Shown here: one piece after another, positions 1-62,112 of the stretch
Numbering within the stretch: the stretch's first letter is position 1
Layout of the letters: each line of letters begins with the position of its first letter
NCBI RefSeq assembly: GCF_008801935.1
Contig: NZ_VZOT01000001.1
Coordinates: 310,001-374,000, forward strand
DNA length: 64,000 bases
Direction of reading: 5' to 3'
Source: Comamonas kerstersii
GTDB lineage: Bacteria > Pseudomonadota > Gammaproteobacteria > Burkholderiales > Burkholderiaceae_C
Notes under the pieces: generated by a model
What the model was told of the DNA's origin: nothing
Seen by the model: the letters and a program-made list of their open reading frames with translations, nothing else
Database searches by the model: none
Position numbers and translations under genes: made by a program

Positions 1-66
1 CTGGACATCAACGAGTTCCGCGGTGAGCGCAAGGTGCAGTTTCTGGTCGAAGGTGCGCAAGCATAA
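1..66 (+). CDS. recJ: RecJ single-stranded-DNA exonuclease, C-terminal end (partial)
   Basis: Only the last 21 codons and the TAA stop are in the window. The tail reads LDINEFRGERKVQFLVEG, which resembles the end of the C-terminal domain of bacterial RecJ, the 5'-3' single-strand DNA exonuclease of recombination and mismatch repair. No catalytic DHH motif is visible because the rest of the gene lies upstream. The assignment rests on this short tail alone, so it is probable rather than certain. Confidence 0.6.
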   Translation: MDINEFRGERKVQFLVEGAQA

Positions 67-73
67 AAACAAG

Positions 74-149
74 AGCTGCCAGCGCTGACAAATCAAGCAT
101 TTCAGATAGTTTTCTATTTGAAGTGCTTGATACATCAGCGCAAGCAGCT
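74..149. repeat. 76-bp palindromic intergenic repeat, copy 1
   Basis: The element starts AGCTGCCAGCGCT and ends AGCGCAAGCAGCT. A second, inner inverted repeat (CAAGCATTTCAGATAG against CTATTTGAAGTGCTTG) surrounds a TTTT centre. It lies directly after the recJ stop. Six further copies of the same 76-bp length occur in this window. Confidence 0.85.
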
Positions 150-158
150 ATCAAAAAC

Positions 159-181
159 AAAGGCCTGCAATGCAGGCCTTT
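159..181. terminator. Bidirectional Rho-independent terminator between recJ and the chemoreceptor
   Basis: A perfect 10-bp stem (AAAGGCCTGC / GCAGGCCTTT) encloses a 3-nt loop. It is A-rich on one side and T-rich on the other, and it lies between the convergent ends of recJ and the chemoreceptor gene, so it could serve both. Confidence 0.7.
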
Positions 182-207
182 GCTGTATGCGCTATCTGAG
201 CACGTAC

Positions 208-2025
208 TCAGAAGCTTTCCCAGTCATCATCGGCAGCGGCCTTGGTGGAAGTTGCAGGTTTGGCTGCTGCGGGTGCGGCCAGGCTGGCTGCAGGCCTTGC
301 CTTGGCTGGTGTGGAAGCCGCCGACGCCACAGGTGAAGCAGCGACAGGCTTGCGCACTGGCTCAACCTTGTCCTTGGCAGGTTGAGGTGCAGGCACGGCC
401 GCAGGCGCGCTGCGCACGGCATTCACGGCCGCAGCTGCTGGGCTCACCGGATGCTGGTAGGACATGGACAGTCCGCCCGCATTCCCTACATTGAACACCG
501 CCACCACCTGCGCCAGGCGCTGGGCCTGCTCATTCATGGCCGTGGCAGCTGCCGAAGACTCTTCCACCAGCGCGGCGTTTTGCTGGGTCATCTGGTCCAG
601 ATTGCTCACCGCCTGATTGACCTGGGCAAAGCCATCGTGCTGCTCATGCACCGCAGCGCTGATCTCACCAATCAGATCGGTCACGCGGCGCACGCTCTCG
701 ACGATTTCCTGCATGCTCTTGCCCGCTTCTGCGACCTGGGACGAGCCTGCATCCACATTGGCCACGCTGGCCGTAATCAGGGACTTGATTTCCTTGGCCG
801 CCTCGGCACTGCGCTGCGCCAGCGCCCGCACCTCACCGGCCACCACGGCAAAGCCACGCCCCTGCTCGCCCGCACGTGCGGCTTCCACCGCGGCGTTCAG
901 CGCCAGGATGTTGGTCTGGAAGGCAATGCCATCGATCACGCTGATGATGTCGGCAATCTTGTGGCTGCTGCTGGTGATCTGCTGCATGCTGCTCACCACC
1001 TGCTGCACCACGCTGCCGCCGCGCTCCGCAGCCTGCACTGCTGTGCTGGCCAGCTGGTTGGCCTGGCGTGCCGTATCGGCAGACTGCGAGGCGCTCGCCG
1101 TCAGCTCTTCAATGCTGGATGCGGTTTCTTCCAGGTTGGCTGCGGTCTGCTCCGTGCGGCTGGACAGATCCTGATTACCCGTAGCAATCTGCGATGCTGC
1201 TGAGGAGACAGAGTCCACACCGTTGCGCACTTCCAGCACCACGCTGCGCAGGCGCTGGGTCATGGCGCTCAGGCTTTGCAGCAGTTTGCCCAGCTCATCC
1301 CTGCGGTCAGACTGCAGGCTGGCCGTCAGATCACCTGCAGCAATGGTCTCGGCCAGCTGCACGGCTTCGTCCAGCGGACGGGTGATCTGGCGAATCACAT
1401 AGAGGGACAGCAACACAGCCAGCACTGCCACCAGCAGCAGTGCGGCGCCGCCCACCAGCAAGGCGGAATTGCGCTTTTGCAGGCCCTGCTCAATCATGCG
1501 GTCACGCATGCGCTCCTGCAGGCGCACCAGATCGGTCTGCGCCTGGTTATAGGCCGCGACGGCAGGCATCATCTGCTGGTCGAGCAGTTCACGGGCCTGC
1601 TCGTAGCGATAGGCATTGCGCGCCTGCGCAATCTGCCCGTTCAGCTCCAGCACCTTGGCGCGCGCCTGTGCAATCTTGGCCAGTTGCTGCTGGCCTTCAG
1701 GGCTGGTCAGCGCCTGCTCCAGCTGTTTCTGGATGGCCGATGCCCCCTCTACGCCCTCACGGGTTTTGTTCTGGGCATAAGCGCTCAGGCTGCTCTCGGT
1801 GGTCATGGCGCCCATCACCACGTGAGCCACTGCATGGTCAGTAATGCCGCGCCACTGCTCGGCCAGCCGGATGCGCTGCTCATAGTCCTGCAGTTCAGCG
1901 CGCAAGTGCGTCTCTACCCCATTGATGTAGCGCAGCATGGCCCCCCCTGCGCACACGGCCAGCACCAGCACCCCCAGCATCAGCCCCCATATCTTTGTAG
2001 ATACCGACCAGTTCTTAAATTGCAT
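208..2025 (-). CDS. Methyl-accepting chemotaxis protein with C-terminal CheR/CheB-type tether
   Basis: This 605-residue transmembrane chemoreceptor has a first membrane helix at about residues 13-32, a periplasmic four-helix-type sensor domain to about 190, a second helix at about 190-212, a HAMP domain, and the MCP signalling hairpin with [20 protein letters not shown]. It would signal through CheA/CheW to the flagellar motor. The C-terminus, after an Ala/Pro/Lys linker, is DDDWESF, which resembles the NWETF-type pentapeptide that tethers CheR and CheB on high-abundance receptors. The start has a strong upstream GGGAGGGAG Shine-Dalgarno. The ligand cannot be read from sequence. No chemotaxis operon adjoins it. 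Confidence 0.93.
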
Positions 2026-2194
2026 CTTCTCCCTCCCGATTTAATACTTTTCGCGTAAATTTGAAACATTTTGTGCAGGCATCAGAAAAACGCCTGATAC
2101 AAACATAGCAGCTTCAAGGGGATTTTGCGCAAAAGCAACTCCCGTCGAGAATCAGCACTTGCCTGTTGTTTTTAAACGGCAGCGCCGCTGACCT

Positions 2195-3067
2195 ATGCCC
2201 CATCCCATGCCTTCCTCCCTCCCCTTCCAGGCCGACCTGCATTGCCACTCCACCTATTCCGACGGCACCCTGTCTCCACAGGCACTGGCGCAGCGTGCCA
2301 GAGCGTGCGGCGTGACGCTGTGGGCACTGACCGACCATGACGAAATCAGCGGACTGCCCCTGGCCCATGCAGCCGCGCAGGAGCAGGGGCTGTCCTTTCT
2401 GACGGGCGTGGAAATTTCTGTCAGCTTTGCCAGCACCACCGTACACATCGTGGGTCTGGGTTTTGATCCGGACGATGCACAGCTGCGCGATGGCCTGCAC
2501 AGCGTGCGCCACAGCCGCGGTCCGCGCGCCAGAGAAATGGCGCAGCAGCTGGCGGTTGCGGGCATTTCTGGCGCTTACGAAGGGGCGCTTAAATACGTGG
2601 GCAATCCGGAGCTGATCTCGCGCACCCACTTTGCACGCTATCTGGTGGAAATCGGGGCCTGCCGCAGCACGCAGGAAGTGTTTCAGCGCTATCTGGTGCC
2701 AGGCAAACCTGGCTATGTGCCGCAACGCTGGGCATCGCTGGAAGACGCTGTGCGCTGGATCACCGATGCTCAGGGCGTGGCCGTGGTGGCCCACCCTGCG
2801 CGCTACCACTTCAGCCCCATGGAGGAGTACGCCTTTTTCTGCCGCTTCAAGGAGCTGGGCGGTCAGGCTGTGGAAGTGGTCTGCGGCAGCCACACACCGC
2901 ACGAATACGAACACTATGCGGATCTGGCCCAGGAGCTGAACCTGGCCATCTCACGCGGCAGTGACTTTCACAGCCCGCAAGAGTCCTCCATCGACCTTGG
3001 CGGCCTGCCACCTGACCCTGCACGGCTGACCGGCGTGTGGGAGCTGCTGCAGCACCGTATCTGCTAG
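2195..3067 (+). CDS. rnm: PHP-domain 3',5'-nucleoside bisphosphate phosphatase / 5'-3' RNase (RNase AM, YciV type)
   Basis: This 290-residue protein starts its PHP fold with DLHCHSTYSDGTLSP and continues with ALTDHDEISG, the His/Asp metal-ligand motifs of the PHP phosphoesterase family. GSDFH near the C-terminus supplies further ligands. Relatives hydrolyse pAp and trim 5' ends of RNA. It is followed by yciO, the same pairing (yciV-yciO) seen in enterobacteria, which supports the subfamily. Translation could start at codon 1 or at the Met four codons later (MPSSLPF). Confidence 0.88.
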   Translation: MPHPMPSSLPFQADLHCHSTYSDGTLSPQALAQRARACGVTLWALTDHDEISGLPLAHAAAQEQGLSFLTGVEISVSFASTTVHIVGLGFDPDDAQLRDGLHSVRHSRGPRAREMAQQLAVAGISGAYEGALKYVGNPELISRTHFARYLVEIGACRSTQEVFQRYLVPGKPGYVPQRWASLEDAVRWITDAQGVAVVAHPARYHFSPMEEYAFFCRFKELGGQAVEVVCGSHTPHEYEHYADLAQELNLAISRGSDFHSPQESSIDLGGLPPDPARLTGVWELLQHRIC

Positions 3068-3161
3068 GTTGCCCCCACATTTTGTGAGCATCTGACCTGC
3101 ATGCAGCAGCGCCAGAGACGGCGCACAATGCGCATACCGCGCACAAGATCAAGGAAGCACC

Positions 3162-3797
3162 ATGGCCCAGTACTTTGAAATCTATCCGGACAACCCGCAG
3201 CCACGCCTGCTCAAGCAGGCCGTCGCGCTGCTGCAAAAAGGCGGAGTCATTGCCCTGCCGACCGACTCCAGCTATGCCCTGGTCTGCCAGCTGGATGACA
3301 AGAATGCCGTGGAACGCCTGCGCCGCATTCGCCAGGTCAATGACAAGCACCACCTCACCCTGCTGTGCCGTGATCTGTCCGAACTGGCCAACTACGCCCT
3401 GGTCGATAACCAGCAGTACCGCCTCATGAAGCTGGGCACCCCCGGCCCCTACACCTTTATCCTGGATGCCACCAAGGAAGTACCACGCCGCGTGAGCCAC
3501 CCTTCGCGCAAGACCATTGGCCTGCGTGTACCGGACCGCAAAGGCACGCAGATGCTGCTGGAACTCATGGGGGCACCGCTGCTGGCCACCACGCTGATTC
3601 CTCCGGGCGAAGAGCTGCCCATGAACGACCCGGAAGCCATCCGCGAACGCTTTGAGCACGAGATCGACGCCATTGTCGATGCCGGTGCCTGCCCGCTGGA
3701 GCCCACGACGGTGATTGACCTCACGCCCATGCGTCTGGGCAACCCGCCCGTGTGTGTGCGTGAAGGCGCAGGCCCGCTGTCTGCAATTGGCCTGTAA
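3162..3797 (+). CDS. yciO: Sua5/YciO/YrdC-family protein, YciO type
   Basis: This 211-residue single-domain protein belongs to the Sua5/YciO/YrdC fold that makes threonylcarbamoyl-AMP for tRNA t6A37. The N-terminus (AQYFEIYPDNPQPRLL), the segment PTDSSYALVCQLDDKNA and the C-terminal PTTVIDLTPM closely match the E. coli YciO layout rather than TsaC. The KxR-type nucleotide-binding features look intact. YciO proteins may not be the main t6A enzyme of the cell, so the exact role is uncertain. It sits between rnm and the M50 protease gene on the same strand, probably in one transcription unit. Confidence 0.9.
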   Translation: MAQYFEIYPDNPQPRLLKQAVALLQKGGVIALPTDSSYALVCQLDDKNAVERLRRIRQVNDKHHLTLLCRDLSELANYALVDNQQYRLMKLGTPGPYTFILDATKEVPRRVSHPSRKTIGLRVPDRKGTQMLLELMGAPLLATTLIPPGEELPMNDPEAIRERFEHEIDAIVDAGACPLEPTTVIDLTPMRLGNPPVCVREGAGPLSAIGL

Positions 3798-3852
3798 AAC
3801 GGGCTGCAATGGCAAACCACCGCAAGCGGTGGATGTTTGAGACAATGACACC

Positions 3853-4515
3853 GTGAACGATCTGATACAAACCGTCCTTATCTACGCCCTTCCTGTGCTG
3901 TTTTCCATCACAGTGCACGAAGCTGCCCACGGCTATGCCGCGCGCTACTTTGGTGACTACACCGCCACCATGCTGGGCCGCGTCACGCTCAACCCCATCA
4001 AGCACATTGACCCCATCGGCACCATTCTGATGCCGCTGCTGCTGTACTTTTCGACCTCGGGTGCCTTCCTGTTTGGCTACGCCAAGCCCGTGCCCGTGAA
4101 CTTCAGCCATCTGCGCCGCCCCAAGCGCGACATGATCTGGGTCGCACTGGCGGGCCCTGCCTCCAACTTCGTGCAGGCCATTGCCTGGGCCTTGCTGCTG
4201 GTCGTGCTGGTTGCCACCAATGTGGAAGAGCGCTTTTTCATGGAAATGGCACGCGCCGGTGTGCTGGTGAACCTGGTGATGTGGGCCTTCAACCTGTTTC
4301 CGCTGCCGCCGCTGGACGGTGGCCGCATTCTGGTGGGGCTGCTGCCTACCAAGGCAGCCATCACCTTCTCGCGCATTGAGCCCTATGGCTTTTTCATCGT
4401 GCTGGCGCTGGTCCTGCTGGGCATTGTGGGCACGGTCTGGCTGCGCCCGCTGATGGACATTGGCTACAGCGTGATCAACACCCTCATCAGCCCCCTGCTG
4501 TCTGCGCTGCAGTAA
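3853..4515 (+). CDS. Site-2 protease family (M50) integral membrane metalloprotease
   Basis: This 220-residue polytopic membrane protein has the zinc motif HEAAH at residues 22-26 inside the first membrane helix, and the third-ligand motif LPPLDGGR near residue 156, in the usual M50 arrangement. There is no PDZ domain, so it belongs to the short Rip-like group rather than RseP. Translation starts at a GTG. The substrate is unknown. Proteins of this group commonly neighbour trpS or yciO in betaproteobacteria, as here. Confidence 0.9.
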   Translation: MNDLIQTVLIYALPVLFSITVHEAAHGYAARYFGDYTATMLGRVTLNPIKHIDPIGTILMPLLLYFSTSGAFLFGYAKPVPVNFSHLRRPKRDMIWVALAGPASNFVQAIAWALLLVVLVATNVEERFFMEMARAGVLVNLVMWAFNLFPLPPLDGGRILVGLLPTKAAITFSRIEPYGFFIVLALVLLGIVGTVWLRPLMDIGYSVINTLISPLLSALQ

Positions 4516-4538
4516 ACACACAAAGCTTTGACTGATTC

Positions 4539-4565
4539 AGGCTGCCTGCGTGCAGCCTCTTTTGA
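4539..4565 (+). terminator. Probable terminator between the M50 protease gene and trpS
   Basis: The stem AGGCTGC / GCAGCCT with loop CTGCGT is followed by CTCTTTT. It lies 24 bases after the protease stop and just upstream of trpS. It could also act as a leader attenuator. Confidence 0.45.
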
Positions 4566-4581
4566 TAACTTGGTTTGAGAT

Positions 4582-5892
4582 ATGAGCACCACCCGTTTTC
4601 TGACTGGCATTACGCCCTCCGGCACACCTCACCTGGGCAATTACGCAGGCGCCATTCGCCCTGCCGTGGCCGCCAGTCGCACCCCCGGCATGGAAAGTTT
4701 TTATTTCCTGGCCGACTACCACGCCCTGATCAAGTGCCAGGACCCTGCCCGTGTGCACCGCTCCACGCTGGAAATTGCCGCCAGCTGGCTGGCCTGTGGT
4801 CTGGACCCCGAGCATGTGGTGTTCTACCGCCAGTCGGATGTGCCCGAGATTCCCGAGCTGAACTGGTTCCTCTCCTGCGTGACCGGCAAGGGCCTGCTCA
4901 ACCGTGCCCACGCCTACAAGGCGTCGCAGGACAAGAATGCCGAAGCAGGCAAGGAACTGGACGACGGTGTGACCGCTGGCCTGTTCATGTACCCCGTGCT
5001 GATGGCCGCTGACATCTTGATGTTCAACGCGCACAAAGTGCCTGTGGGGCGCGATCAGATCCAGCACATCGAAATGGCGCGCGACATTGCCTCCAGCTTC
5101 AACCACCTGTATGGCGAGCACTTTGTGCTGCCCGAGGCTGCTATTGAAGAAAACGTAGCCACGCTGCCAGGTCTGGACGGCCGCAAGATGAGCAAGAGCT
5201 ACGACAACACGATTCCGCTGTTTGCTCCCCGCAATGAACTGAAAAAGCTCATCAACAGCATCGTGACGGACTCGCGCGCCCCCGGGGAGCCCAAGGACAC
5301 CGAAGGCTCTGCCCTGTTCCAGCTGTACCAGGCCTTTGCCACCGCCGAGGAAACCGAAGCCATGCGCAAGGCCTTTGCCGAAGGCATTGCCTGGGGTGAT
5401 GCGAAAAACATGCTGTTCGAGCGCATCGATGCCGAAATCGCACCCAAGCGCGCCATCTATGAAGACCTGATGGCCCATCCCGAGAAGGTGGAAGCCGCTT
5501 TGCAGATCGGTGCCGAACGTGCCCGTGCGCTCAGCCGCCCCTTCATCACCAAGCTGCGCGCCGCCGTGGGCCTGCGCAGCCTGGCCAGCCAGGACGGTCA
5601 TGCCAAGAAGGCCAAGGCCGCCAAGGTGGCACTGCCCAGCTTCAAGCAGTACCGCGAAGCCGATGGCAAGTTCTACTTCAAGTTCATGGCTGCCGACGGA
5701 AGCCTGCTGCTGCAAAGCACAGGGTTTGAGCAACCCAAACAGGCCGGCCAGAGCATTGCGCAACTGCAGCAGCAGGGTGCCGATGCACTGCGTGCCCTGC
5801 AGGCCTGCGTCCAGCTGGGCGAAGGTGTTTCGGATACCGATGTACTGCAGGCGCTGCAGACACTGCAGGAAGCAGCAAACAATAAAGGCTGA
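4582..5892 (+). CDS. trpS: Tryptophanyl-tRNA synthetase, long form
   Basis: This class I synthetase charges tRNA-Trp. The HIGH-equivalent HLGN begins at residue 17 within TPSGTPHLGNYAGA, and the KMSKS loop is present as GRKMSKSYDN near residue 200. At 436 residues it is about 100 longer than E. coli TrpS. The extra C-terminal segment begins around LPSFKQYREADGKFYFKF and is typical of the longer form found in Burkholderiales-type bacteria. A hairpin precedes the gene, so it may have its own promoter. Confidence 0.95.
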   Translation: MSTTRFLTGITPSGTPHLGNYAGAIRPAVAASRTPGMESFYFLADYHALIKCQDPARVHRSTLEIAASWLACGLDPEHVVFYRQSDVPEIPELNWFLSCVTGKGLLNRAHAYKASQDKNAEAGKELDDGVTAGLFMYPVLMAADILMFNAHKVPVGRDQIQHIEMARDIASSFNHLYGEHFVLPEAAIEENVATLPGLDGRKMSKSYDNTIPLFAPRNELKKLINSIVTDSRAPGEPKDTEGSALFQLYQAFATAEETEAMRKAFAEGIAWGDAKNMLFERIDAEIAPKRAIYEDLMAHPEKVEAALQIGAERARALSRPFITKLRAAVGLRSLASQDGHAKKAKAAKVALPSFKQYREADGKFYFKFMAADGSLLLQSTGFEQPKQAGQSIAQLQQQGADALRALQACVQLGEGVSDTDVLQALQTLQEAANNKG

Positions 5893-5928
5893 CACAGACT
5901 GATTGCAAAAAAAGGGGGAGGTGCCGCT

Positions 5929-6615
5929 ATGCGCATTGCCGTTTTGGATGACGATCCCGCACAGCTGGCCATGATTGAGCGCGTGGCCCAGGAGATGGGC
6001 CACAGTTGCGCGCTGTTTTCAGAAGGTCAGGCGCTGATGCTGGCGCTGCGCCGCGACACGTTTGACCTGCTGGTCGTCGACTGGGAACTGCCCGACACCA
6101 GCGGCCCTGAGGTGGTGCGCTGGGCGCGGCAGCATCTGGAGTCCCAGCTGCCGATTCTGTTCATCACCCACCGCAGCGAAGAACGCGATGTGGTGGAGGG
6201 GCTGCAGAGCGGGGCGGATGACTTCATGATCAAGCCGCTGCGTGTGGCCGAGCTGCAGGCACGCATTCAGGCCCTGCTGCGCCGCGCCTATCCGTTTCCC
6301 AGCGACGATGTACAGCACTTCGGCCCCTATATCTTTACGCGCTCACAGCTGACGGTCAGCTTTCAGGACAAGCATGTGGCGCTGACGCACCGCGAGTTCG
6401 CCCTGGCCCTGCTGCTGTTCCAGAACGCAGGCCGCCTGCTGTCACGCGACTATCTGCGTGAGGCGGTCTGGGGCCAGAACGCCGAAGTGCTGTCGCGTTC
6501 GCTGGACACCCATGTGTCCCGCCTGCGGCAAGTCCTGCAACTGCGGCCCGGCAATGCGTATTCCATTGCTGCGGTCTACGGTCTGGGCTACCGCCTGGAC
6601 AGCCACCTCAGCTAA
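5929..6615 (+). CDS. OmpR/PhoB-family response regulator of the FecR/CHASE2 unit
   Basis: This 228-residue regulator has a receiver domain (acidic cluster DDD at residues 7-9, phospho-acceptor Asp51 in LLVVDWELPD, lysine in MIKPLR) followed by a winged-helix DNA-binding domain that ends with YSIAAVYGLGYRLDSH. A very strong AAGGGGGAGG ribosome-binding site precedes the ATG. It is 27 bp upstream of the LysM/FecR gene and two genes upstream of a CHASE2 histidine kinase, its likely partner. The target promoters are unknown. Confidence 0.9.
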   Translation: MRIAVLDDDPAQLAMIERVAQEMGHSCALFSEGQALMLALRRDTFDLLVVDWELPDTSGPEVVRWARQHLESQLPILFITHRSEERDVVEGLQSGADDFMIKPLRVAELQARIQALLRRAYPFPSDDVQHFGPYIFTRSQLTVSFQDKHVALTHREFALALLLFQNAGRLLSRDYLREAVWGQNAEVLSRSLDTHVSRLRQVLQLRPGNAYSIAAVYGLGYRLDSHLS

Positions 6616-6642
6616 ACAGCCACCACACTTTCCGCCGTCACC

Positions 6643-8379
6643 ATGCTCCCTCGCACTGCCTTCTGCATTTCCGCATCGTCCTGCGCCGTGGCCCTGTGCA
6701 GCACCCTGGTGCTGCTGCCTGCTGCTGCGCAGCAGACGTCGCAACCGCAGCAGGTCATTGCCCACCGCATCGTGACTGGCGACACGCTGACCCAGATTGC
6801 CCAGCGCTATCTGGGCGATGCCACGCTCTGGCAGGCCCTGCAAAGCCACAACAAGGTGGGCAGCCCTTACCGCCTGCAGCCCGGCTCCATGCTGGAAGTG
6901 CCCATGTGGCTGATGCGCAAGGCTACGGCTTCGGTGGACTTTGTGCAGGGCAATGCCCAGCTGCGCAACCGCAGCACCACAGCCGCCGTGCCTGTGCAGC
7001 CTGGCATGCCGCTTGAGGAAGGTGACCAGCTGCAGCTCTCGCCCGATGCATTCGTCACCGTCAAGCTGGCCGACGGCAGCCTGATTCAGGTGCGCGCGGC
7101 TTCCTCCGTGCAGCTGAACCAGCTGCGCCGCCGTGGCCGTGCGGGCAGCCTGCAGTCCGTCCTCGAACTGCAGCAAGGCGGTGTAGATATACAGGTGCCC
7201 GGCAAGCCGGATGCCCAGCGCCATCTGGACATACGCACGCCCGTTGCTGCCACCAGTGTGCGCGGCACCCGCTTTGACGTGCAGCTGCAGCCCGACGGCA
7301 GCACCACAGCCGCTGTACTGCAGGGCCAGGTGGCCATGCAGTCGCTGACCGGCGCTCAGTCCGCCGTGCAGACGCTCCCCCCTCACTTTGGCATGGCCGT
7401 GGCGGCCAATGGCCAGCCCGGCCCTGTCACGGCACTGCTGCCCGCGCCCAGTGCACAGTCCCTGCCCAGCCTGTATGAAGACGCGCAGTGGCTGGACATT
7501 CCCCTGCCTGCCATGCCACAGGCACAGGGCTGGCTGGTGAGCATCAGCAGCGATGCGCAGGGCCACAAGGTGCTGCGCAATGCCCAGGTGCAGGGCCAGC
7601 AGGCACGCTTTGCCGCCCTGCCTGATGGCGGCTACTACCTGCATGTACGGGCGCTGGACCCGTACGGCATCAGCGGTCTGCCGCGCACGCTGCCGATCCG
7701 CGTCAAAGCCCACCCCGTGCCACCGCTGGTGCAAACGCCTGCCCCCGGAGCCACGCTGGCCCTGGGTGAAGCCCAGCTGCTGTGCACCCCCGTGGATGGC
7801 GCTGACAGCTACCGCCACCAGATCATTGCCCTGCCTGCAGCAGATGCAGACATTGCCACCAGTGCGTTTGCACAGCCTGCTCTGCAAAGCAGCAGCCCTG
7901 CGCAGGACTGCCGCATCGACCTGCAAAACCTGCCCGCTGGTGACTACGCATGGCGCGCTGCCAGTGTGCGCAGCATGGCCGGGCAGCCCGACCGCGGGCC
8001 ATTTGCCGATCCGCACCGCTTCCGCATTGCGCCCCGGCCAGCCACGCTCTCCGCAGCAAATATGCAGGAGCACACCGTCGCCGGCCTGAGCACCATCCAC
8101 TGGCCCGGCGAGCCTGGTCAGCGCTACCGCCTGCAGGCCTTTGCCACGCCCGATGGCACAGCACCAGCACTGGATACACTGCTCGACAGCCCACGCTGGG
8201 CGGCCGCAGGCCTACCTGCAGGCACCTGGCATGTGCGCATTCAGGTGCAGGACCCATCGGGGCTGAACAGCGCCTTCTCGCCACCACGCAGCGTGCAGGT
8301 GCGCGATCTGCTGCTCGATGGCACGGGCCAGCCCGTGCAGTCCGGCACAGGCCTGGGTATTGAACGCTGGGACAGATAA
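6643..8379 (+). CDS. Secreted LysM- and FecR-domain protein
   Basis: This 578-residue exported protein has a signal peptide of about 28 residues ending near LLPAAAQ, then a LysM domain (HRIVTGDTLTQIAQRYLGD, residues about 42-90) expected to bind peptidoglycan. A FecR-like beta domain follows at about residues 110-260, including the signature VAATSVRGTRFDV. The C-terminal half holds repeated Ig/fibronectin-like beta modules. The gene lies between a response regulator and a CHASE2 histidine kinase, suggesting it is an envelope-side sensor or accessory of that pair. There are no membrane helices beyond the signal peptide. The function is inferred from context. Confidence 0.85.
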   Translation: MLPRTAFCISASSCAVALCSTLVLLPAAAQQTSQPQQVIAHRIVTGDTLTQIAQRYLGDATLWQALQSHNKVGSPYRLQPGSMLEVPMWLMRKATASVDFVQGNAQLRNRSTTAAVPVQPGMPLEEGDQLQLSPDAFVTVKLADGSLIQVRAASSVQLNQLRRRGRAGSLQSVLELQQGGVDIQVPGKPDAQRHLDIRTPVAATSVRGTRFDVQLQPDGSTTAAVLQGQVAMQSLTGAQSAVQTLPPHFGMAVAANGQPGPVTALLPAPSAQSLPSLYEDAQWLDIPLPAMPQAQGWLVSISSDAQGHKVLRNAQVQGQQARFAALPDGGYYLHVRALDPYGISGLPRTLPIRVKAHPVPPLVQTPAPGATLALGEAQLLCTPVDGADSYRHQIIALPAADADIATSAFAQPALQSSSPAQDCRIDLQNLPAGDYAWRAASVRSMAGQPDRGPFADPHRFRIAPRPATLSAANMQEHTVAGLSTIHWPGEPGQRYRLQAFATPDGTAPALDTLLDSPRWAAAGLPAGTWHVRIQVQDPSGLNSAFSPPRSVQVRDLLLDGTGQPVQSGTGLGIERWDR

Positions 8380-8386
8380 AAAAGAG

Positions 8387-8462
8387 AGCTGCTAGCGCTT
8401 ATCCATCAAGGTTTTTCAATGCAATTAACTTTCAAATCATTGAAAGATAAGCGCAAGCAGCT
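8387..8462. repeat. 76-bp palindromic repeat, copy 2, inside the FecR/CHASE2 operon
   Basis: The element starts AGCTGCTAGCGCTTATC and ends GATAAGCGCAAGCAGCT, with an inner TTTCAAT/ATTGAAA-type pairing. It fills most of the 104-bp gap between the FecR-protein stop and the kinase start. As RNA it would fold into a long hairpin followed by a T-rich stretch and could lower kinase expression relative to the upstream genes. Confidence 0.85.
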
Positions 8463-8483
8463 CCTTTTTTTGATATTTTCCGC

Positions 8484-10784
8484 ATGAAACGCTCGCTCAC
8501 GCTGGAATGGCTGCTGATGTCACTGGGCCTGCTGGCGCTGGTGTTCTGGCTGTCCGGCCCCCTGCAGTTTCCCCGGGCCAATCTGTGGTTCAAAGACCTG
8601 GCGCTGCGGCTGCACAGCCCCGAGCCATCGCCCGATGTGGTCCTGATCGCCGTGGACGAGCGCAGCCTTGCCAGCATTGGCCGCTGGCCCTGGCGCCGCG
8701 CCCTGCATGCACACCTGATCGACTTCGTCAGCATGGGCCAGCCACGCTCCATTGGGCTGGACATTCTGCTGGCCGAAGCCGATCTGGACTACCCCGAAGA
8801 CGACGCCCTGCTGGCCCACAGCATGGTGCGCAGCGGGCGCGTGGTTCTGCCGCTGGTCAGCAGCGGCAACGCCCAGACCACCAGCCTGCCGCTGCCACTG
8901 TTTGCCCAGACCGCTGCACGGCTGGGCCACGTTCACCTGCCGCTGGACCCGGACGGTGGCGTGCGCAGCTTCTATGCCAGAGAAGGCTTTGCCCAGCACC
9001 AGTGGCTGCACCTGGGCCTGTCCATGCTCTGCCTGAGTCAGCCACAGGGCCCGGACTGCCGCAGCACCGCCCAGACCGATGCGCCATCTGCCTCCGGCCC
9101 ATGGCTGCGCAGCCAGCCGATCCGGATTGCCTTTGCCAGGGGCGAGGCACCTTTCATCACCTACTCCTATATCGACGTGCTGCGGGGCAAGATTCCAGCC
9201 AGCGCCTTTCGCAACAAGCATGTGCTGATCGGTGCGACCGCCACCGGCCTTGGTGCCACGGTGCTGCCACCGAGCGGCGCCAGCCCCAGCGCCTTGCACA
9301 ATGTGAAAATGCTGGCCCACATCGTCAGCGGCGCACTGCAGCAGCAACACGTGAGCACTGCCAGCCCCTGGGCCAACCGCATCTTCAACCTGCTTCCCGT
9401 GGCACTGGGACTGGCCGCACTGTCCGTGCTGGGCCCGTCTGCAGCCCTGCTCACCTGCCTGGGGCTGGCACTGCTGACGCTGCTGCTGCACGCTCTGGCC
9501 CCCACCCTCACCCACACCGTATTCAGCCCGGCGGCCGCCTTGCTGGTGCTGCTGCTGGCCTACCCGCTGTGGAGCTGGCGCAGGCTCAGTACCGCAGCCC
9601 AGTTTCTGAACCAGGAAATGCAGCATCTGCGCGTGCAGGGGCTGAACACAGCGCCTGCCGCTGTGCCGCGGCGAGGCGACTTTCTGCAAGGCCGCATTCT
9701 GGCCGTGGAGCAGGCTACGCAGCAGCTGCGCCAGCTGCATGAGTTTGTGACCGACACCCTGCTGCAGCTGCCATCGCCCACCATGGTCTGCAACCGCCAG
9801 GGGCAGATCGTGCTGGCCAACAGGGCGGCCCACCGCTATGCCCAGCAGCTGCAGCGTCCGCTGCAGGAGCTGCAGCCCATCGCCGAACTGCTGGAGGGGG
9901 CGGTAGAACGTGGCAGCCTGCAGCCGCTGTGGAGCAGCGAGCAGCCTCCGCCACTGGACAAGACCATGCAGCGCGAAGGCATAGACCTGCAGCAACGCAG
10001 CCTGCTGATGCTGAGCAAGCCGTTTTCCGTGGCTGGTGACACCGGCTGGCTGGTCAGTCTGGTGGACATCAGCGAACTGCGTGCCGCCATGGCCCAGCGC
10101 GACCAGGCCCTGCACTTCATCTCACACGATATTCGCGCGCCCATAGGTGCCATCCTCACGGCCATTGAGATGGAGCAGCACTTTGGGCAGGAGGACACCT
10201 CTTCCGTCCTCATCGAGCGCATCCAGCGCTACGCACGCAACGGACTGTCCCTGGCTGACGACTTTGTCTACCTGGCCCGTGCCCAGCACACCACGGCCCA
10301 GCGTGTGCCGGTGGAACTGGGGGCCATCATTGACCAGGCACTGGACGACACCTGGGCAGCCGCCAACGCACGCCTGGTCGAGCTGGACTGGATGCCCCAG
10401 GAAGAAGAGGCCTGGGTGCTGGGAGACGCCAGCATGCTGCGCCGCGCCTGTGTGAACCTGATCAGCAATGCCATCAAGTACGGCCCTGTGGAAGGCACGG
10501 TGTACTGCAGCCTGGCCCAGGATGGCGATGCCTGGTGCATCACCGTGCGCGATGAGGGCGATGGCATCAGCGCCAAAGAGCAGGAACGCCTGTTTGCCCC
10601 CTTTACCCGGCAGGCACAGCACGAGGCACAAAAGATCCAGGGCTTTGGCCTGGGCCTGGCCTATGTGCACACCACGGCCCAGCAGCATGGCGGCAGCATC
10701 AGCGTGGTCAGCGAAGTCGGCCACGGCGCCAGCTTTATCCTGCGCCTGCCCAAGGCGCCGGTACCAGCACTGCAGCCCAGCTGA
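8484..10784 (+). CDS. CHASE2-domain sensor histidine kinase
   Basis: This 766-residue membrane kinase has one N-terminal helix (about residues 11-28), a large extracytoplasmic CHASE2 domain (about 30-290, with DVVLIAVDERSLASIGRWPW), then a cluster of three helices (about 305-375). A short coiled segment, a PAS-like region (about 425-545), a HisKA domain with phospho-acceptor His548 in HFISHDIRAP, and an HATPase domain (NLISNAIKYGP, DEGDGIS, GFGLGLAYV) follow. This is the canonical CHASE2-3TM architecture. It is co-directional with the OmpR-type regulator and the LysM/FecR protein, which should form one signalling unit. The stimulus is unknown. Confidence 0.92.
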   Translation: MKRSLTLEWLLMSLGLLALVFWLSGPLQFPRANLWFKDLALRLHSPEPSPDVVLIAVDERSLASIGRWPWRRALHAHLIDFVSMGQPRSIGLDILLAEADLDYPEDDALLAHSMVRSGRVVLPLVSSGNAQTTSLPLPLFAQTAARLGHVHLPLDPDGGVRSFYAREGFAQHQWLHLGLSMLCLSQPQGPDCRSTAQTDAPSASGPWLRSQPIRIAFARGEAPFITYSYIDVLRGKIPASAFRNKHVLIGATATGLGATVLPPSGASPSALHNVKMLAHIVSGALQQQHVSTASPWANRIFNLLPVALGLAALSVLGPSAALLTCLGLALLTLLLHALAPTLTHTVFSPAAALLVLLLAYPLWSWRRLSTAAQFLNQEMQHLRVQGLNTAPAAVPRRGDFLQGRILAVEQATQQLRQLHEFVTDTLLQLPSPTMVCNRQGQIVLANRAAHRYAQQLQRPLQELQPIAELLEGAVERGSLQPLWSSEQPPPLDKTMQREGIDLQQRSLLMLSKPFSVAGDTGWLVSLVDISELRAAMAQRDQALHFISHDIRAPIGAILTAIEMEQHFGQEDTSSVLIERIQRYARNGLSLADDFVYLARAQHTTAQRVPVELGAIIDQALDDTWAAANARLVELDWMPQEEEAWVLGDASMLRRACVNLISNAIKYGPVEGTVYCSLAQDGDAWCITVRDEGDGISAKEQERLFAPFTRQAQHEAQKIQGFGLGLAYVHTTAQQHGGSISVVSEVGHGASFILRLPKAPVPALQPS

Positions 10785-10820
10785 GCGCCTCAGGCGCATT
10801 AGCAGCTGGGAAAAACGAAA

Positions 10821-10850
10821 AAGCCCCAGAACTTTGCAGTTCTGGGGCTT
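10821..10850. terminator. Bidirectional terminator between the CHASE2 kinase gene and tRNA-Arg
   Basis: The stem AAGCCCCAGAACT / AGTTCTGGGGCTT (13 bp) encloses a 4-nt loop and is flanked by an A-rich stretch. It sits between the convergent kinase and tRNA-Arg genes. Confidence 0.75.
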
Positions 10851-10856
10851 GTCGTT

Positions 10857-10933
10857 TGGTGCGGCTGGCAGGAATCGAACCCACGACCCCTTGGTTCGTA
10901 GCCAAGTACTCTATCCAGCTGAGCTACAGCCGC
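10857..10933 (-). tRNA. tRNA-Arg(ACG)
   Basis: The reverse strand folds as a complete 77-nt cloverleaf: acceptor GCGGCTG / CAGCCGC, D arm with AGCTCAGCTGG, anticodon stem CTTGG / CCAAG around loop CTACGAA (anticodon ACG, wobble base normally edited to inosine), T arm GTGGGTTCGATTCCTGC, discriminator A and an encoded CCA. Confidence 0.96.
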
Positions 10934-11007
10934 TGAAGCTACGAATTATAGGCACATTTTTCACATCTTTTTTGAAATTGCGCATTTTTTCCAAAAAATC
11001 TCAGTCA

Positions 11008-11023
11008 CTGTATTTACATACAG
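11008..11023. promoter_or_regulatory. LexA-like SOS box
   Basis: CTGTATTTACATACAG is a 16-bp CTGT-N8-ACAG site whose outer six bases on each side form a perfect inverted repeat. It matches the E. coli-type LexA consensus also used by betaproteobacteria. It lies 90 bp upstream of the unknown gene at 11114 and 75 bp upstream of tRNA-Arg on the other strand. Embedded TATTTA/TACATA could act as a -10 element. Confidence 0.55.
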
Positions 11024-11113
11024 ATTCTTTGCAGCATCAGCCCTGCTACGCCTTAAAATTCAAGCCCTGACTGCTCTTAAAACAGCAGCATTCGCGGCTG
11101 GGCTGCATGTTTC

Positions 11114-11434
11114 ATGGCAACGCGCAACAAAAAGTCATCCACTCCTGTCTCCTGGCTGCGCCGCATCTACCAGCGCCTGACCAGCCGCATGGCCTGCTTT
11201 GTCTGGGGTGCACTGTTCGGCAATGCCTTGCTGAGTCAGCCCGTAGAGCCGCTGAACCTGCTGCTGGCACCGCCGGAGTACATGCTCAGCAGCTCGGCGC
11301 AGGAAGGACTGGCCGCACTGCGCCAGAGCATGCGTGAGCTGGGTGCTGCGTTCACCGACGCGGTCTGGGAACGCGTACATGCACATATGCGCCCTGACGA
11401 CAGCGCTCCCGCGCAAGAGCGCACCGAGCACTGA
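11114..11434 (+). CDS. Small hypothetical protein, possibly SOS-regulated
   Basis: I do not recognise this 106-residue protein. It has a basic N-terminus (ATRNKKSS...RRIYQRLTSR), one short hydrophobic segment (MACFVWGALFGNALL, about residues 26-40) that could be a membrane helix, and a helical C-terminal half. A near-consensus LexA box lies 90 bp upstream, so it may be damage-inducible. No strong Shine-Dalgarno is visible. A hairpin follows at 11470. It is a plausible gene from codon use (CTG-rich), with no assignable function. Confidence 0.6.
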   Translation: MATRNKKSSTPVSWLRRIYQRLTSRMACFVWGALFGNALLSQPVEPLNLLLAPPEYMLSSSAQEGLAALRQSMRELGAAFTDAVWERVHAHMRPDDSAPAQERTEH

Positions 11435-11469
11435 TCCCCAACCGCCGTTCCAACCGCTACCAACAAAAA

Positions 11470-11490
11470 CGCCTGTCACAGGACAGGCGT
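11470..11490. terminator. Hairpin between two convergent hypothetical genes
   Basis: ACGCCTGTC / GACAGGCGT forms a 9-bp stem with a 3-nt loop. On the minus strand it is followed by TTTTTGTTG, so it best terminates the gene ending at 11514. Confidence 0.6.
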
Positions 11491-11513
11491 CTGGTGTGCA
11501 GCAACGCCTGAAA

Positions 11514-12047
11514 TCAGGCGGGGGCTTCCGTCTCCTGCAAGTGCTGCAGCTCTTCTTCGCCGCGAATGCGCACATGCATCCAGAAGCCGCGCGCCTCGTC
11601 CTGCTTGACCAGGCGGGTATCCAGCTTGACCTTGTGCGGCAGCGGTGTCTCGATGGAGTACAGCGAAGGGGTACGCAGGATGGCTTCCTGCGATGGCATC
11701 TTCCAGTACTGCTCGTAGCCCGCGTGGTAGGCCACGGCATCGCACAGGCCTTTGCGCTGCAGGTCCTGCATCATCTTGGGCGTCAGCTCTTCGCCCGTAC
11801 CTATGCCAAGCTCGGGCACCAGCAGCAGACGCTGTGTGGCGGGCTGCACATGCAGCCAGACCTCGGAGGGGCCATCAAAGCCTTTTTCTTCTACAACAGG
11901 TGCTGTTTGATGAGCTTCCACGCCTTCACGCCCCATGAAGCGCCGCTTCTGCCCTTCACTTTCAGCGGCAGCTGCGGAGGCAGAGGCCGGCGCATCTTGG
12001 GCACCACTCCCTGACAACGTAGAAATCAATCGATCAAAAATGCTCAC
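11514..12047 (-). CDS. Hypothetical acidic cytoplasmic protein
   Basis: This 177-residue protein from a GTG start (VSIFDRLISTLSGSG) is of unknown family. The chosen start gives the reading VSIFDRL directly after a purine-rich stretch (AGAAAGAAAAGA). The frame stays open a further 27 codons upstream without a better start. After a low-complexity Ala/Ser/Glu stretch it has a compact region with VWLHVQPATQRLLLVPELGIGTGEEL and a C-terminal FWMHVRIRGEEE. There is no signal peptide or membrane helix. It is followed by a terminator-like hairpin at 11470. Confidence 0.65.
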   Translation of the reverse strand: MSIFDRLISTLSGSGAQDAPASASAAAAESEGQKRRFMGREGVEAHQTAPVVEEKGFDGPSEVWLHVQPATQRLLLVPELGIGTGEELTPKMMQDLQRKGLCDAVAYHAGYEQYWKMPSQEAILRTPSLYSIETPLPHKVKLDTRLVKQDEARGFWMHVRIRGEEELQHLQETEAPA

Positions 12048-12289
12048 TGCGTCTTTTCTTTCTGGTCTACCTGCACCATGCAGATATTCATCACCTTCAC
12101 CAGCACTGCTGGCAGCCTGCCACTGCACAGGCAGCAGCCAGACTTTGCAACAGGCATGCAGGCTGTGAAACCGGGTTCAAGCCCGGTATTGTCGCAAAAA
12201 GCAGCAAATCACGTTGTTGTCTAGGCGCAGATAAGCTTTCCATTCCCGTCTTTCTTTGCTCCATTGGCACTGCGCCCAGCGCACCGTCA

Positions 12290-13896
<1,607 letters not shown>

Positions 13897-13972
13897 AGCA
13901 GCTAGCGCTTGAATATCAAGCACTTCAAATAGTTTTCATATTGAAGTGCTTGATTCATCAGCGCTAGCAGCT
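13897..13972. repeat. 76-bp palindromic repeat, copy 3, between modA and modB
   Basis: It begins at the modA stop region with AGCAGCTAGCGCTTGA and ends with TCAGCGCTAGCAGCT. The inner arms CAAGCACTTCAAATA and TATTGAAGTGCTTG pair around GTTTTCA. Its position between the binding-protein gene and the permease gene is where REP-type hairpins in other operons stabilise the upstream message. Confidence 0.88.
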
Positions 13973-14000
13973 CATTTTTTTAATTCTTCACACGCTGGGC

Positions 14001-14675
14001 ATGCTATCTACCGAAGATTGGGCCGCCATCAGGCTGACACTGGAGCTGGCCACGGTCACCACCGTGCTGCTGCTGGTGCTGTGCACCCCGCTGGCATGGT
14101 GGCTGGCACACACGGCTTCACGCTGGAAGGGACCGGTGGGCGCAGTCGTGGCCCTGCCTCTGGTGCTGCCGCCCACGGTGATTGGTTTTTATCTGCTGGT
14201 CACCATGGGCCCCAGCGGCCCGGTAGGCCAGTTCACCGAATGGCTGGGGCTGGGCTATCTGCCATTTACGTTTCCGGGGCTGGTCGTGGGCTCCATCATT
14301 TATTCCCTGCCCTTTGCCGTACAGCCCCTGCAACGTGCCTTTGAAAGCCTGGGGCAGCGTCCGCTGGAAGTGGCGGCCACGCTGGGGGCCAGCAAGCTCG
14401 ATACTTTTTTTACCGTGGTGCTGCCCATGGCGCGCACCGGCTTTGTCACCGCTGCCGTGCTGAGCTTTGCGCACACCGTGGGCGAGTTTGGCGTGGTGCT
14501 CATGATTGGCGGCAACATCCCGGGCGTGACGCGCGTGGTGTCCGTGCAGATCTACGACCATGTAGAAGCCATGGACTACGCCAGCGCCCACTGGCTGGCG
14601 GGTGGCATGGTGGTCTTCAGCTTTGTGGTGCTGATGCTGCTGCACTGGCTGCAACCCAGCAAGGAGCGCGCATGA
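14001..14675 (+). CDS. modB: Molybdate ABC transporter permease
   Basis: This 224-residue inner-membrane permease has about five helices. It carries the ABC-permease EAA loop near [20 protein letters not shown], and [20 protein letters not shown], which is highly characteristic of ModB. It is probably cotranscribed with modA despite the 104-bp gap holding a repeat. It overlaps modC by 4 bp (ATGA), indicating translational coupling. Confidence 0.95.
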
Positions 14676-15742
14676 TCGAAGCCCAACTGGCACTGCAGCG
14701 TGCCGACTTCACGCTGGATGTGCATCTGCAGCTGCCCGGCCGAGGCATTACCGCGCTGTTTGGCCCATCGGGCTGCGGCAAGACCACGGTGCTGCGCAGC
14801 ATGGCCGGGCTGGAACGTGCCCGGGGTCGCGTCACCATCAACGGCCAGGTCTGGCAGGACGAGGCCACACGCCAGTGGCTGCCCACACACCAGCGTGCGC
14901 TGGGCTATGTGTTTCAGGAAGCCAGCCTGTTCCCCCACCTGAGCGTGCACGGCAATCTGGCCTATGGCCTCAAGCGCACCCCGGCAGCCCGCCGCAAGGT
15001 GCAGCTGGAGCAGGCGGTGGAGCTGCTGGGCATTGGCCATCTGCTGGAGCGCAGCCCGGCCACGCTCTCTGGCGGTGAACGCCAGCGCGTAGCCATTGCA
15101 CGGGCGCTGGCTACCAGCCCGCAACTGCTGTTGATGGACGAGCCCCTGTCTGCCCTGGATGCCCAGCGCAAGGCCGAGGTGCTGCCCTATCTGGAAAGTC
15201 TGCAAAAAAACCTCGACATGCCCGTGCTCTACGTGAGCCACGCGCAGGACGAAGTCGCGCGGCTGGCCCACCATGTCGTGCTGCTGCAGGCCGGGCGCGC
15301 CGTGTTTGCGGGCGACACGGCCAGCGCCATGGCCCAGAGCGAACACCCCATGGCACCGGCTGCCGAAGCTGCCAGCCTGGTGCAAGGCCAGATCACGGCC
15401 TATGACGCGCAGGACCACCTGAGCACCGTGCATTTTGACGGTGGCCAGCTCCTGATCAGCGGCGCTGCCAACCGCCGCTTGGGGGACGCCGTACGCCTGC
15501 GCGTGCTGGCGCGGGACGTGAGCATTGCGCTGCAGGCACCGCAGGGCAGCAGCATTCTGAACCGCATCCCCGCCACGCTCACGACGCTGCATGAGGACAG
15601 CCCCGGCCAGGTCATGCTCAGCCTGCAGGCGGGCAGCACCACGCTACTGGCACGCGTATCAGCACGTTCAGCACGCGAGCTGGGCTTGCACCAAGGCCAG
15701 TCTGTGATTGCGCAAATCAAAAGCGTGGCCCTGCTGGATTAA
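14672..15742 (+). CDS. modC: Molybdate ABC transporter ATP-binding protein
   Basis: This 356-residue ABC ATPase energises molybdate import. Walker A is GPSGCGKTT, the signature motif is [15 protein letters not shown], and Walker B with switch is [11 protein letters not shown]. The C-terminal about 120 residues form a mop/TOBE domain ([19 protein letters not shown]), diagnostic of ModC. The start overlaps the modB stop. Confidence 0.95.
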
Positions 15743-15766
15743 ACGCAGCGGCCTATCATCCGCTGT

Positions 15767-16657
15767 ATGACTGATGCCAGCGCCTGCTCTCTTGAAACTC
15801 CCGATGTCCCTGCACTGACCCGCTGCGACGTGCGCTTTCACCACGCCGAGCGCGGCGTGCAGGCCGAGCAGCGCGTGCTGGCCAACGAAGTGCCAATTGC
15901 CCTGGTGTTCAACGGCATCGCCCATGCGGTGATGATGGGCACGCCACTGGACCTGGAAGACTTTGCCATCGGCTTTGCGCTCAGCGAAGGCATCATCGAC
16001 AGCGCCGCCGACTGCTATGGCGTGGACGTGCGCCCGGTCTCTGCCACCGCAGCCGGTTTGCCTGTTGGCATGGATGGCATGGAAGTGCAGCTGGAAATTG
16101 CTTCGCGCTGCTTCATGCGCCTCAAAGACCACCGCCGCAGCATGAGTGGCCGCACAGGCTGCGGGGTCTGCGGGGTGGAGAGCTTTGCGGCACTCGATCT
16201 GACATTCGACGCCCTGCCTGCTCGCGACTGGGTGGCACAGGTGGACCTGCCCACCGTGTTGAAAGCCATAGACCACCTGCCGCCCAAGCAAGTGCTCAAT
16301 GCCGAAGCCGGCGCCATCCACGCCGCTGGCTGGGCCACGCTGGACGGACAGGTGCACGATGTGATCGAAGACGTGGGCCGCCACAATGCGCTGGACAAGC
16401 TGCTGGGCCGCCTAGCACGCACGGGCCGCCTCAGTGAGCCGGGCTTTGTGGTGCTCTCCAGCCGTGGCAGCCATGAGCTGGTGCGCAAATGCGCCAAGCT
16501 CGGCATTGCTGCGCTGGCCACTATTTCTGCCCCCACGGCCATGGGCGTGCGCATGGCGGAACTCACTGGGCTGCGCTTCTGGGGCCTGGCGCGCCCACCC
16601 AAGGCCACGCTGTATGCCCCAGGTGCTGGCCTGCATCTGGATGCCCCGCAAGCCTGA
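15767..16657 (+). CDS. fdhD: FdhD, sulfurtransferase for formate dehydrogenase
   Basis: This 296-residue FdhD-family protein carries the CxxC motif in GRTGCGVCGVESF (about residue 125-137), plus the characteristic LGRLARTGRL and VLSSRGSHELVRKCAKLGI. FdhD transfers sulfur from IscS to the bis-MGD cofactor of formate dehydrogenases. Its position 24 bp after modC ties molybdate uptake to maturation of a molybdoenzyme. No formate dehydrogenase structural gene is in the window. Confidence 0.95.
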   Translation: MTDASACSLETPDVPALTRCDVRFHHAERGVQAEQRVLANEVPIALVFNGIAHAVMMGTPLDLEDFAIGFALSEGIIDSAADCYGVDVRPVSATAAGLPVGMDGMEVQLEIASRCFMRLKDHRRSMSGRTGCGVCGVESFAALDLTFDALPARDWVAQVDLPTVLKAIDHLPPKQVLNAEAGAIHAAGWATLDGQVHDVIEDVGRHNALDKLLGRLARTGRLSEPGFVVLSSRGSHELVRKCAKLGIAALATISAPTAMGVRMAELTGLRFWGLARPPKATLYAPGAGLHLDAPQA

Positions 16658-26017: not shown

Positions 26018-26059
26018 AGGCCGGATTATGTGCATGTTGTGCGTGCTCACAAAAAGATG

Positions 26060-26135
26060 AGCTGCCTGCGCTCATCAATGCTTGATTTGAAGGTTATTTA
26101 TATTTGAAATGCTTATAAATCAAGCGCAAAAAGCT
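26060..26135. repeat. 76-bp palindromic repeat, copy 4
   Basis: It starts AGCTGCCTGCGCTCATCAA and ends AAATCAAGCGCAAAAAGCT. It is the most diverged intergenic copy but has the same length and outer arms. It lies between the NlpC/P60 gene start and the ffh terminator, i.e. upstream of the former and downstream of the latter. Confidence 0.75.
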
Positions 26136-26157
26136 ATATTTTTCATAGTTTCAGAAC

Positions 26158-40444: not shown

Positions 40445-40531
40445 GTCCAGCAGCATACGAAGCCCGTGCGCCAGCGTCTCGCGCTGAATGGCGAAGATAG
40501 GGGCTCTGGCTGACGATGCAAACAAAACAAT

Positions 40532-40607
40532 AGCTGCCAGAGCTTGAATTTCAATGAATTCAGATAGAAAACTATCTGAAATCCATATATTTCAAGCGCT
40601 GGCAGCT
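40532..40607. repeat. 76-bp palindromic repeat, copy 5
   Basis: It starts AGCTGCCAGAGCTTGAA and ends TTCAAGCGCTGGCAGCT, with inner arms ATTCAGATAG / CTATCTGAAAT around AAAA. It lies between the EamA gene start side and the phnE terminator. Confidence 0.88.
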
Positions 40608-40610
40608 ATA

Positions 40611-61330: not shown

Positions 61331-62008
61331 ATGCAGCACCATACTGGCAGTTTTTGTGACCAAGCCTGGGAACGCAATCTGCTCCTGTTCCAGGCCACAC
61401 TGGATCTGCCCTTTAACCGCGAACTGGCCGCTGGCACGCTGCCGCGCGATGTCTTTCGCCACTACATGATTCAGGATGCGCACTACCTGGTGGCCTTTGG
61501 CCGTGCGCTGGCTGCCGCTGCCGCCAAGGCCGATGATGCCGACGGCGTGGTGCAGTTTGCCGCTGCTGCCCAGGAAGCCGTGGTGGCCGAACGCGAACTG
61601 CACCACAGCTTCATGCGTGAATACGCCATCACGCCCGAGGAATTTGCCAGCACGCCGCTGTCACCCACCTGCCACCACTACTGCCACTTTCTGCAGTCCG
61701 TCGCCTGGAGCCGCTCCTACCCCGTCGCACTGGCTGCCCTGCTGCCCTGCTTCTGGATTTATGCCGAAGTCGGCGTTGACCTGCAAAAGCGCACGGCCGC
61801 TGGCAACCCGTACCAGAGCTGGATTGATACCTATGGCGGCGAAGACTTCCATGCCCATGTGCACGCCGTGCGCAACACCATTGACGCTGTCGCCGCACAG
61901 GCCGATACGCGTACCCTGGCGGAAATGCATGCCGCCTACACCGATGCTGCGCGGCTGGAGTGGATGTTCTGGGACAGCGCCTACCGCATGCAGACCTGGG
62001 CCTGCTAA
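61331..62008 (+). CDS. tenA: TenA-family thiaminase II / aminopyrimidine aminohydrolase
   Basis: This 225-residue all-helical TenA protein hydrolyses aminopyrimidine for thiamine salvage. The family's catalytic Cys corresponds to Cys140 in LLPCFWIYAEVG, and Glu210 in RLEWMFWDSAY matches the conserved active-site Glu. A CGGAGG ribosome-binding site lies 8 nt upstream of the start. No thiamine genes adjoin it, so it probably works as a stand-alone salvage enzyme. Confidence 0.92.
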   Translation: MQHHTGSFCDQAWERNLLLFQATLDLPFNRELAAGTLPRDVFRHYMIQDAHYLVAFGRALAAAAAKADDADGVVQFAAAAQEAVVAERELHHSFMREYAITPEEFASTPLSPTCHHYCHFLQSVAWSRSYPVALAALLPCFWIYAEVGVDLQKRTAAGNPYQSWIDTYGGEDFHAHVHAVRNTIDAVAAQADTRTLAEMHAAYTDAARLEWMFWDSAYRMQTWAC

Positions 62009-62017
62009 ATAATTCAT

Positions 62018-62093: not shown

Positions 62094-62112
62094 ATTGTTT
62101 TTTAATCGATGC

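Follow-up and report, generated by a model that had tools for sequence, protein, structure and literature searches.

The locus considered here raises the question of what a FecR-domain protein, predicted to bind the cell wall, does between the two genes of a two-component system. It may be part of the sensor, an output of the pathway or simply a neighbour. The window is the whole analysed stretch of 64,000 nucleotides of Comamonas kerstersii DNA (contig NZ_VZOT01000001.1, positions 310,001 to 374,000).

Gene and domain content of the locus

Three co-directional ORFs downstream of trpS encode an OmpR-type response regulator (RR), a LysM + FecR protein and a CHASE2 histidine kinase (HK). The features are as follows (window coordinates, strand, description, basis).

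5929..6615, + strand: OmpR/PhoB-type response regulator, 228 aa (ORF, Pfam)
6643..8379, + strand: LysM + FecR + FnIII-like protein, 578 aa (ORF, Pfam, predicted model)
6763..6903, + strand: LysM domain, residues 41-87 (Pfam)
7039..7332, + strand: FecR domain, residues 133-230 (Pfam, predicted model)
7435..8310, + strand: FnIII-like domains, residues about 265-556 (predicted model)
8376..8472, no strand assigned: 97-nt palindromic repeat in the FecR-HK gap (repeat searches, folding)
8484..10784, + strand: CHASE2 sensor histidine kinase, 766 aa (ORF, Pfam, predicted model)
8532..9413, + strand: CHASE2 domain, residues 17-310 (Pfam)
10098..10289, + strand: HisKA, residues 539-602 (Pfam, alignment)
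10422..10757, + strand: HATPase_c, residues 647-758 (Pfam)

ORF coordinates and, PAS aside, Pfam domains agree with the initial annotation, which had placed three consecutive co-directional genes at these positions. The intergenic gaps are 36 bp (trpS-RR), 27 bp (RR-FecR) and 104 bp (FecR-HK). Upstream on the same strand, Pfam identifies an M50 peptidase and a class I W/Y tRNA synthetase, the latter here called trpS, and there are also genes that we take, from labels given without a search, to be PHP-like and SUA5-like. The next feature after the kinase gene is a tRNA-Arg on the opposite strand.

The first gene had been called an OmpR-type regulator, and both its receiver domain (Response_reg, 3.2e-22) and its Trans_reg_C domain (2.4e-20) are found by Pfam. 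In the kinase, CHASE2 (1.4e-42) and HATPase_c (2.4e-25) are clear and HisKA falls just below its cut-off (7.2e-6, 26.4 bits, 0.5 bits under 26.9); with the phosphorylatable position H548 invariant, the earlier identification as a CHASE2 kinase holds. The catalytic residues that a working two-component pair would need are invariant by alignment in both proteins: the acceptor aspartate D51 (codon 6079-6081), T80 and K102 of the RR in 21/21 aligned sequences, and H548 and the N- and G-box residues in 21/21 aligned kinases. No Pfam match to PAS, also named in the initial annotation, is seen in the window kinase; in the predicted model, residues from about 433 to 528 form a mixed alpha/beta region. 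This model (pLDDT 77, pTM 0.50) is weaker than that of the LysM-FecR protein (mean pLDDT 85, pTM 0.59). Its PDB structure matches are all kinase cores, aligned to model residues 532-760, with the CHASE2 part outside them, and residues 1-420 are not covered in the best stretch by any of the best 60 of 83 PDB sequences. The CHASE2 domain is probably periplasmic. By eye, the kinases of three genus members (L035, L036 and L037) are about 120-130 aa shorter than that of the window and lack the stretch that links the transmembrane part to HisKA.

The middle protein had been described as a secreted LysM + FecR + Ig-like protein. Pfam bears out FecR (7e-14) and LysM (2e-8), both over the Pfam cut-offs, with a further, sub-threshold Ig_J match (E 0.001), and the part termed Ig-like (residues about 265-556) is best described from the predicted model as FnIII-like, read as three domains. 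The hydrophobic N-terminus is read by eye as a putative signal peptide. From its domain content, the protein would be exported, bind the wall and contact CHASE2. In a structural comparison, the modelled FecR region matches the periplasmic signalling domain of PupR (6ovk_R, a cell-surface-signalling domain solved in a complex; Z 17.3, rmsd 2.2, 132 aligned) as well as a putative anti-sigma factor of Parabacteroides (4m0n, Z 15.8). Thus the fold is shared with the periplasmic domain of FecR/PupR anti-sigma regulators. Those regulators classically carry a cytoplasmic anti-sigma N-terminus and have a sigma factor and a TonB-dependent receptor as neighbours, whereas no anti-sigma part is found by Pfam in the window FecR protein, and its neighbours are an RR and an HK.

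Relationship to the BiofilmReg operon

In gene content and order the unit corresponds to BiofilmReg in its three-component form (Voronina et al. 2016, PMC5192318), in which an RR, a LysM/FecR protein and a CHASE2 kinase are encoded in that order on a single strand, and the window unit is therefore already published as a kind. The RR-LysM/FecR-HK order and direction, the RR with receiver and wHTH, the middle protein with both LysM and FecR, and the CHASE2 protein with a kinase core are all found in the window. The two differ in that Burkholderia has a DUF4136 fourth gene, the three-gene form being described as ancestral (PMC5192318); the window locus is without it and has the tRNA-Arg there instead. 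The paper also describes a promoter region of 269 bp, whereas the window RR follows 36 bp behind trpS. Most, but not all, BiofilmReg RRs are assigned to the CreB subfamily (PMC5192318); on the window RR the CreB model comes third best, with 144 bits vs a cut-off of 273. The PAS domain of the BiofilmReg kinase is reported as variable and as absent in two species, and what CHASE2 recognises is stated there to be not known (PMC5192318).

B. contaminans lost its biofilm when the regulator gene received an insertion, but according to the authors transcription of the four genes was destroyed together (PMC5192318), so the biofilm loss can be attributed to no single one of them. Among the 45 genomes compared in the published account, orthologues were reported in none of the Comamonadaceae (PMC5192318). 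A plasmid of Variovorax boronicumulans (Comamonadaceae according to its record) carries genes annotated, in order, as response regulator, FecR domain protein and CHASE2 domain protein, and the same annotated order is found in Eleftheria terrae and Paraburkholderia largidicola. Cupriavidus metallidurans CH34 gives RR and FecR matches that may belong to the complete operon. The 2016 operon is hereby extended to a family where it was reported absent. PMC5192318 is the sole description of the operon found in a literature search on the LysM-FecR/CHASE2 pairing, the coverage of which left most subscription journals outside.

Conservation in the genus and the family

Conservation was surveyed in 41 genomes (the window's own plus 40 relatives), 25 of them in the window's genus. 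A match to the FecR protein is present in 36/41, several of those outside the genus being weak. The initial annotation treated the three genes as a unit, and that reading is not refuted by gene-neighbourhood comparison: the RR-FecR-CHASE2 order is kept on one strand in 25/25 genus genomes searched. The kinase core is seen in 24/25, the 25th (G015) ending at a contig end, and trpS lies upstream of the unit in 25/25. The FecR-HK gap, as called, ranges from 27 to 149 bp in 21 neighbourhoods. The unit is a well-conserved operon of published kind, and the conservation of its order across the genus is new here.

For the family, one genome per genus was taken from 100 genera. A LysM-FecR match at 1e-30 is found in 41/100 of these genomes, own included, and the best 32 of 46 non-own matches were examined. 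Directly downstream on the same strand there is a CHASE2 gene in 27/32 of these best loci, with an RR gene upstream in 13 of those 27; no CHASE2 gene lies within about 6 kb in the other 5/32. The CHASE2-less proteins (L154, L156, L157, L158 and L167) form one clade with support of 100/100. A MoCF_biosynth gene lies just upstream in the four of these five loci that were checked.

Pairing of FecR proteins and CHASE2 across outputs

The 27 family CHASE2 genes encode 15 kinases, 8 hybrid kinases with a receiver, 2 GGDEF-EAL proteins and 2 unclassed proteins, three hybrids and some kinases being assigned by custom profiles only. One of the unclassed (L127) is counted so because no kinase core is in frame; in the tree it is labelled kinase from its CHASE2 part. 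In a tree of 47 LysM-FecR proteins, those with GGDEF-EAL partners appear in two separate places: one (L161) lies within the hybrid-kinase clade (support 100/99), and the other three group elsewhere with the unclassed L163 (support 99/90). Clustering of the GGDEF-EAL label on the tree is not significant (49/500 shuffles as low).

CHASE2 is present in 105/150 sampled genomes of the order. From the best CHASE2 matches listed, every third row was taken to give 50 loci, four rows from an already-taken cluster being swapped for the next row; with L087 (genome G167) dropped, 49 loci were scored, some of their regions ending at contig ends. A FecR domain lies within 5 kb in 14/49, against 0.64 expected by chance. 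The association is stronger for kinases (7/8 CHASE2 kinases vs 7/41 other CHASE2 proteins; Fisher p 2.7e-4), and of the seven FecR-near kinases six are ordered RR-FecR-HK and one HK-RR-FecR. One kinase locus (L068) and 34/41 non-kinase CHASE2 loci are without FecR within 5 kb. A rule by which FecR accompanies every CHASE2 is thus rejected (35/49 sampled loci without FecR within 5 kb).

The non-kinase neighbours vary in closeness. In two (L099 and L065, the LysM of the latter read by eye) a LysM-FecR protein is encoded directly before a CHASE2-PAS-GGDEF-EAL protein. Upstream of a CHASE2-HD protein (L071) there is a short FecR protein, in which no LysM was seen, with one called ORF between. Four others (L057, L061, L069 and L075) have FecR 1.3-4.2 kb off, in three cases on the opposite strand, and this proximity may be chance.

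Two CHASE2 ORFs occur in 19/50 sampled loci, including L059-L064; the pair at L078 is on opposite strands, and that at L061 has a protein kinase domain in one member and a cyclase domain in the other. On a Pseudomonas aeruginosa plasmid record (L116), the FecR gene has as neighbours aqpZ, mucE and a regulator gene on the opposite strand, and is followed by 2.7 kb without a listed gene.

Since the outputs differ while the CHASE2 neighbour stays, the wall protein appears to track the CHASE2 sensor rather than the output. It mostly follows CHASE2 across outputs, as a sensor partner would, and the persistence of the pairing across different outputs is a modest new result.

Role of the LysM-FecR protein

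These data somewhat favour a three-gene two-component system of the BiofilmReg type, in which a wall-held LysM-FecR protein sets the activity of CHASE2. The LysM-FecR-FnIII protein would be exported and held to peptidoglycan through LysM, and its FecR/FnIII part would determine how active the CHASE2 domain is in the periplasm. Transmembrane helices would relay the state of CHASE2 to the kinase core (HisKA/HATPase), and this core would phosphorylate the RR at D51; the phosphorylated RR may then control envelope or biofilm genes. The analysis establishes the genes and their order, the domains, the conserved catalytic residues and the repeated LysM-FecR/CHASE2 pairing across outputs, whereas export, wall binding, FecR-CHASE2 contact, phosphotransfer, stimulus and targets are proposed.

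FecR proteins accompany CHASE2 in two further systems, both with cyclic nucleotide cyclases. A Campylobacterota cluster with a CHASE2 adenylate cyclase includes a FecR-domain outer-membrane protein, a phosphodiesterase and a TPR protein (PMC9239204). It resembles the window locus in having the gene of a FecR-domain protein near that of a CHASE2 receptor, and differs in its cAMP output; a response regulator is unmentioned in the passage of that paper describing the cluster. In S. meliloti, SMc02177 (FecR) is beside CyaD1 (SMc02176, CHASE2), adjacency being taken from the consecutive locus tags (PMC5498481). The likeness to the window is again a FecR gene beside a CHASE2 gene, drawn from domains and locus tags, and the differences are the cyclase output and a FecR protein that is not needed for perception. 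SMc02177 is reported to be induced via CHASE2 cyclases outside the plant, to be required for infection control and to be dispensable for plant-signal perception, and mutating it gives the hyperinfection phenotype also seen in the cyaD1 cyaD2 cyaK triple mutant (PMC5498481). This result favours an effector role for the FecR protein there.

By analogy, the LysM-FecR protein of the window could be a co-regulated envelope output of the pathway rather than part of the sensor. The S. meliloti data (PMC5498481) speak for this, LysM plus FnIII-like domains would fit a structural wall protein, and the 5/32 family loci without a nearby CHASE2 gene agree with it. However, the LysM-FecR gene sits between the RR and CHASE2 genes throughout the genus, and it remains next to CHASE2 at loci with a GGDEF-EAL output or with no separate regulator gene in view, which counts against an output role because a regulator target need not do so. 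An output role is considered rather unlikely. That the three genes have nothing to do with one another in function and adjoin through vertical inheritance, the kinase sensing alone, is very improbable: the unit is also kept behind the functionally unrelated trpS in 25/25 genus genomes and a palindromic repeat parts genes 2 and 3 in 10/21 genomes, but the association is far above chance, and it is found in other families of the order too and on Variovorax and Paraburkholderia plasmid records with no trpS in the stretch shown.

The wall-held partner of CHASE2 is the reading retained. The initial annotation had called the protein a dedicated wall-bound accessory of envelope sensing. Pairing with CHASE2 across outputs supports this without proving it; the dispensability of SMc02177 for perception in the published account (PMC5498481) and the 5/32 CHASE2-less loci weigh against it. 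A wider version, in which LysM-FecR plus CHASE2 form a general periplasmic receptor module with a wall-anchored FecR ligand or gate and an exchangeable cytoplasmic output (histidine kinase, hybrid kinase or GGDEF-EAL), is put forward tentatively, as possible but short of probable. If true, the module would give CHASE2 a partner protein and the FecR fold a function unrelated to sigma factors. CHASE2 sensors are common, and a predicted wall-binding partner kept across outputs makes the question of what they recognise testable.

Palindromic repeat between the FecR and kinase genes

The repeat at 8376-8472 has an A-tract before it and a T-tract after it, and belongs to a family whose copies reach about 97 nt and share a conserved stem. 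Folding of the 110 nt across the FecR-HK gap gives -38.9 kcal/mol (z -6.66). A model built from six copies gives at least 150 matches over the two strands, which corresponds to at least 75 genomic places, and an 18-base arm of the repeat occurs 105 times in the genome at <=3 mismatches, against 0 for the reversed control. The model matches the FecR-HK gap in 10/21 genomes, the weakest being L049 (E 0.003). Over positions 1-16000 of the window, Rfam gave no family for the repeat at the gathering score, and a literature search on Comamonas and repetitive extragenic palindromes returned nothing relevant.

A sigma-70 scan of 2000-11300 found a sole promoter-like site at 10972, outside the operon, and is uninformative because shuffles have a mean of 1.5 such sites. 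Terminator-like sites in the same scan number 6, against 5.9 in shuffles. The FecR-HK hairpin is not among them because its loop exceeds the length allowed by the scan, and it is thus terminator-like by stem and tracts only. The repeat could uncouple transcription of genes 2 and 3. Repeats are found behind periplasmic-binding-protein genes, as in E. coli malE-malF, and by this analogy the repeat may, as a guess, raise the level of the FecR protein over that of the kinase.

Further copies lie in the window at 69-152, 13897-13972, 26049-26145, 40527-40610 and 62007-62104, with a weak one at 52111-52205. The copy at 13897-13972 is directly behind the gene of a putative periplasmic protein, presumably molybdate-binding-like, and before what is presumably its permease gene, both names being given without a search; its position resembles that of the copy behind the FecR gene.
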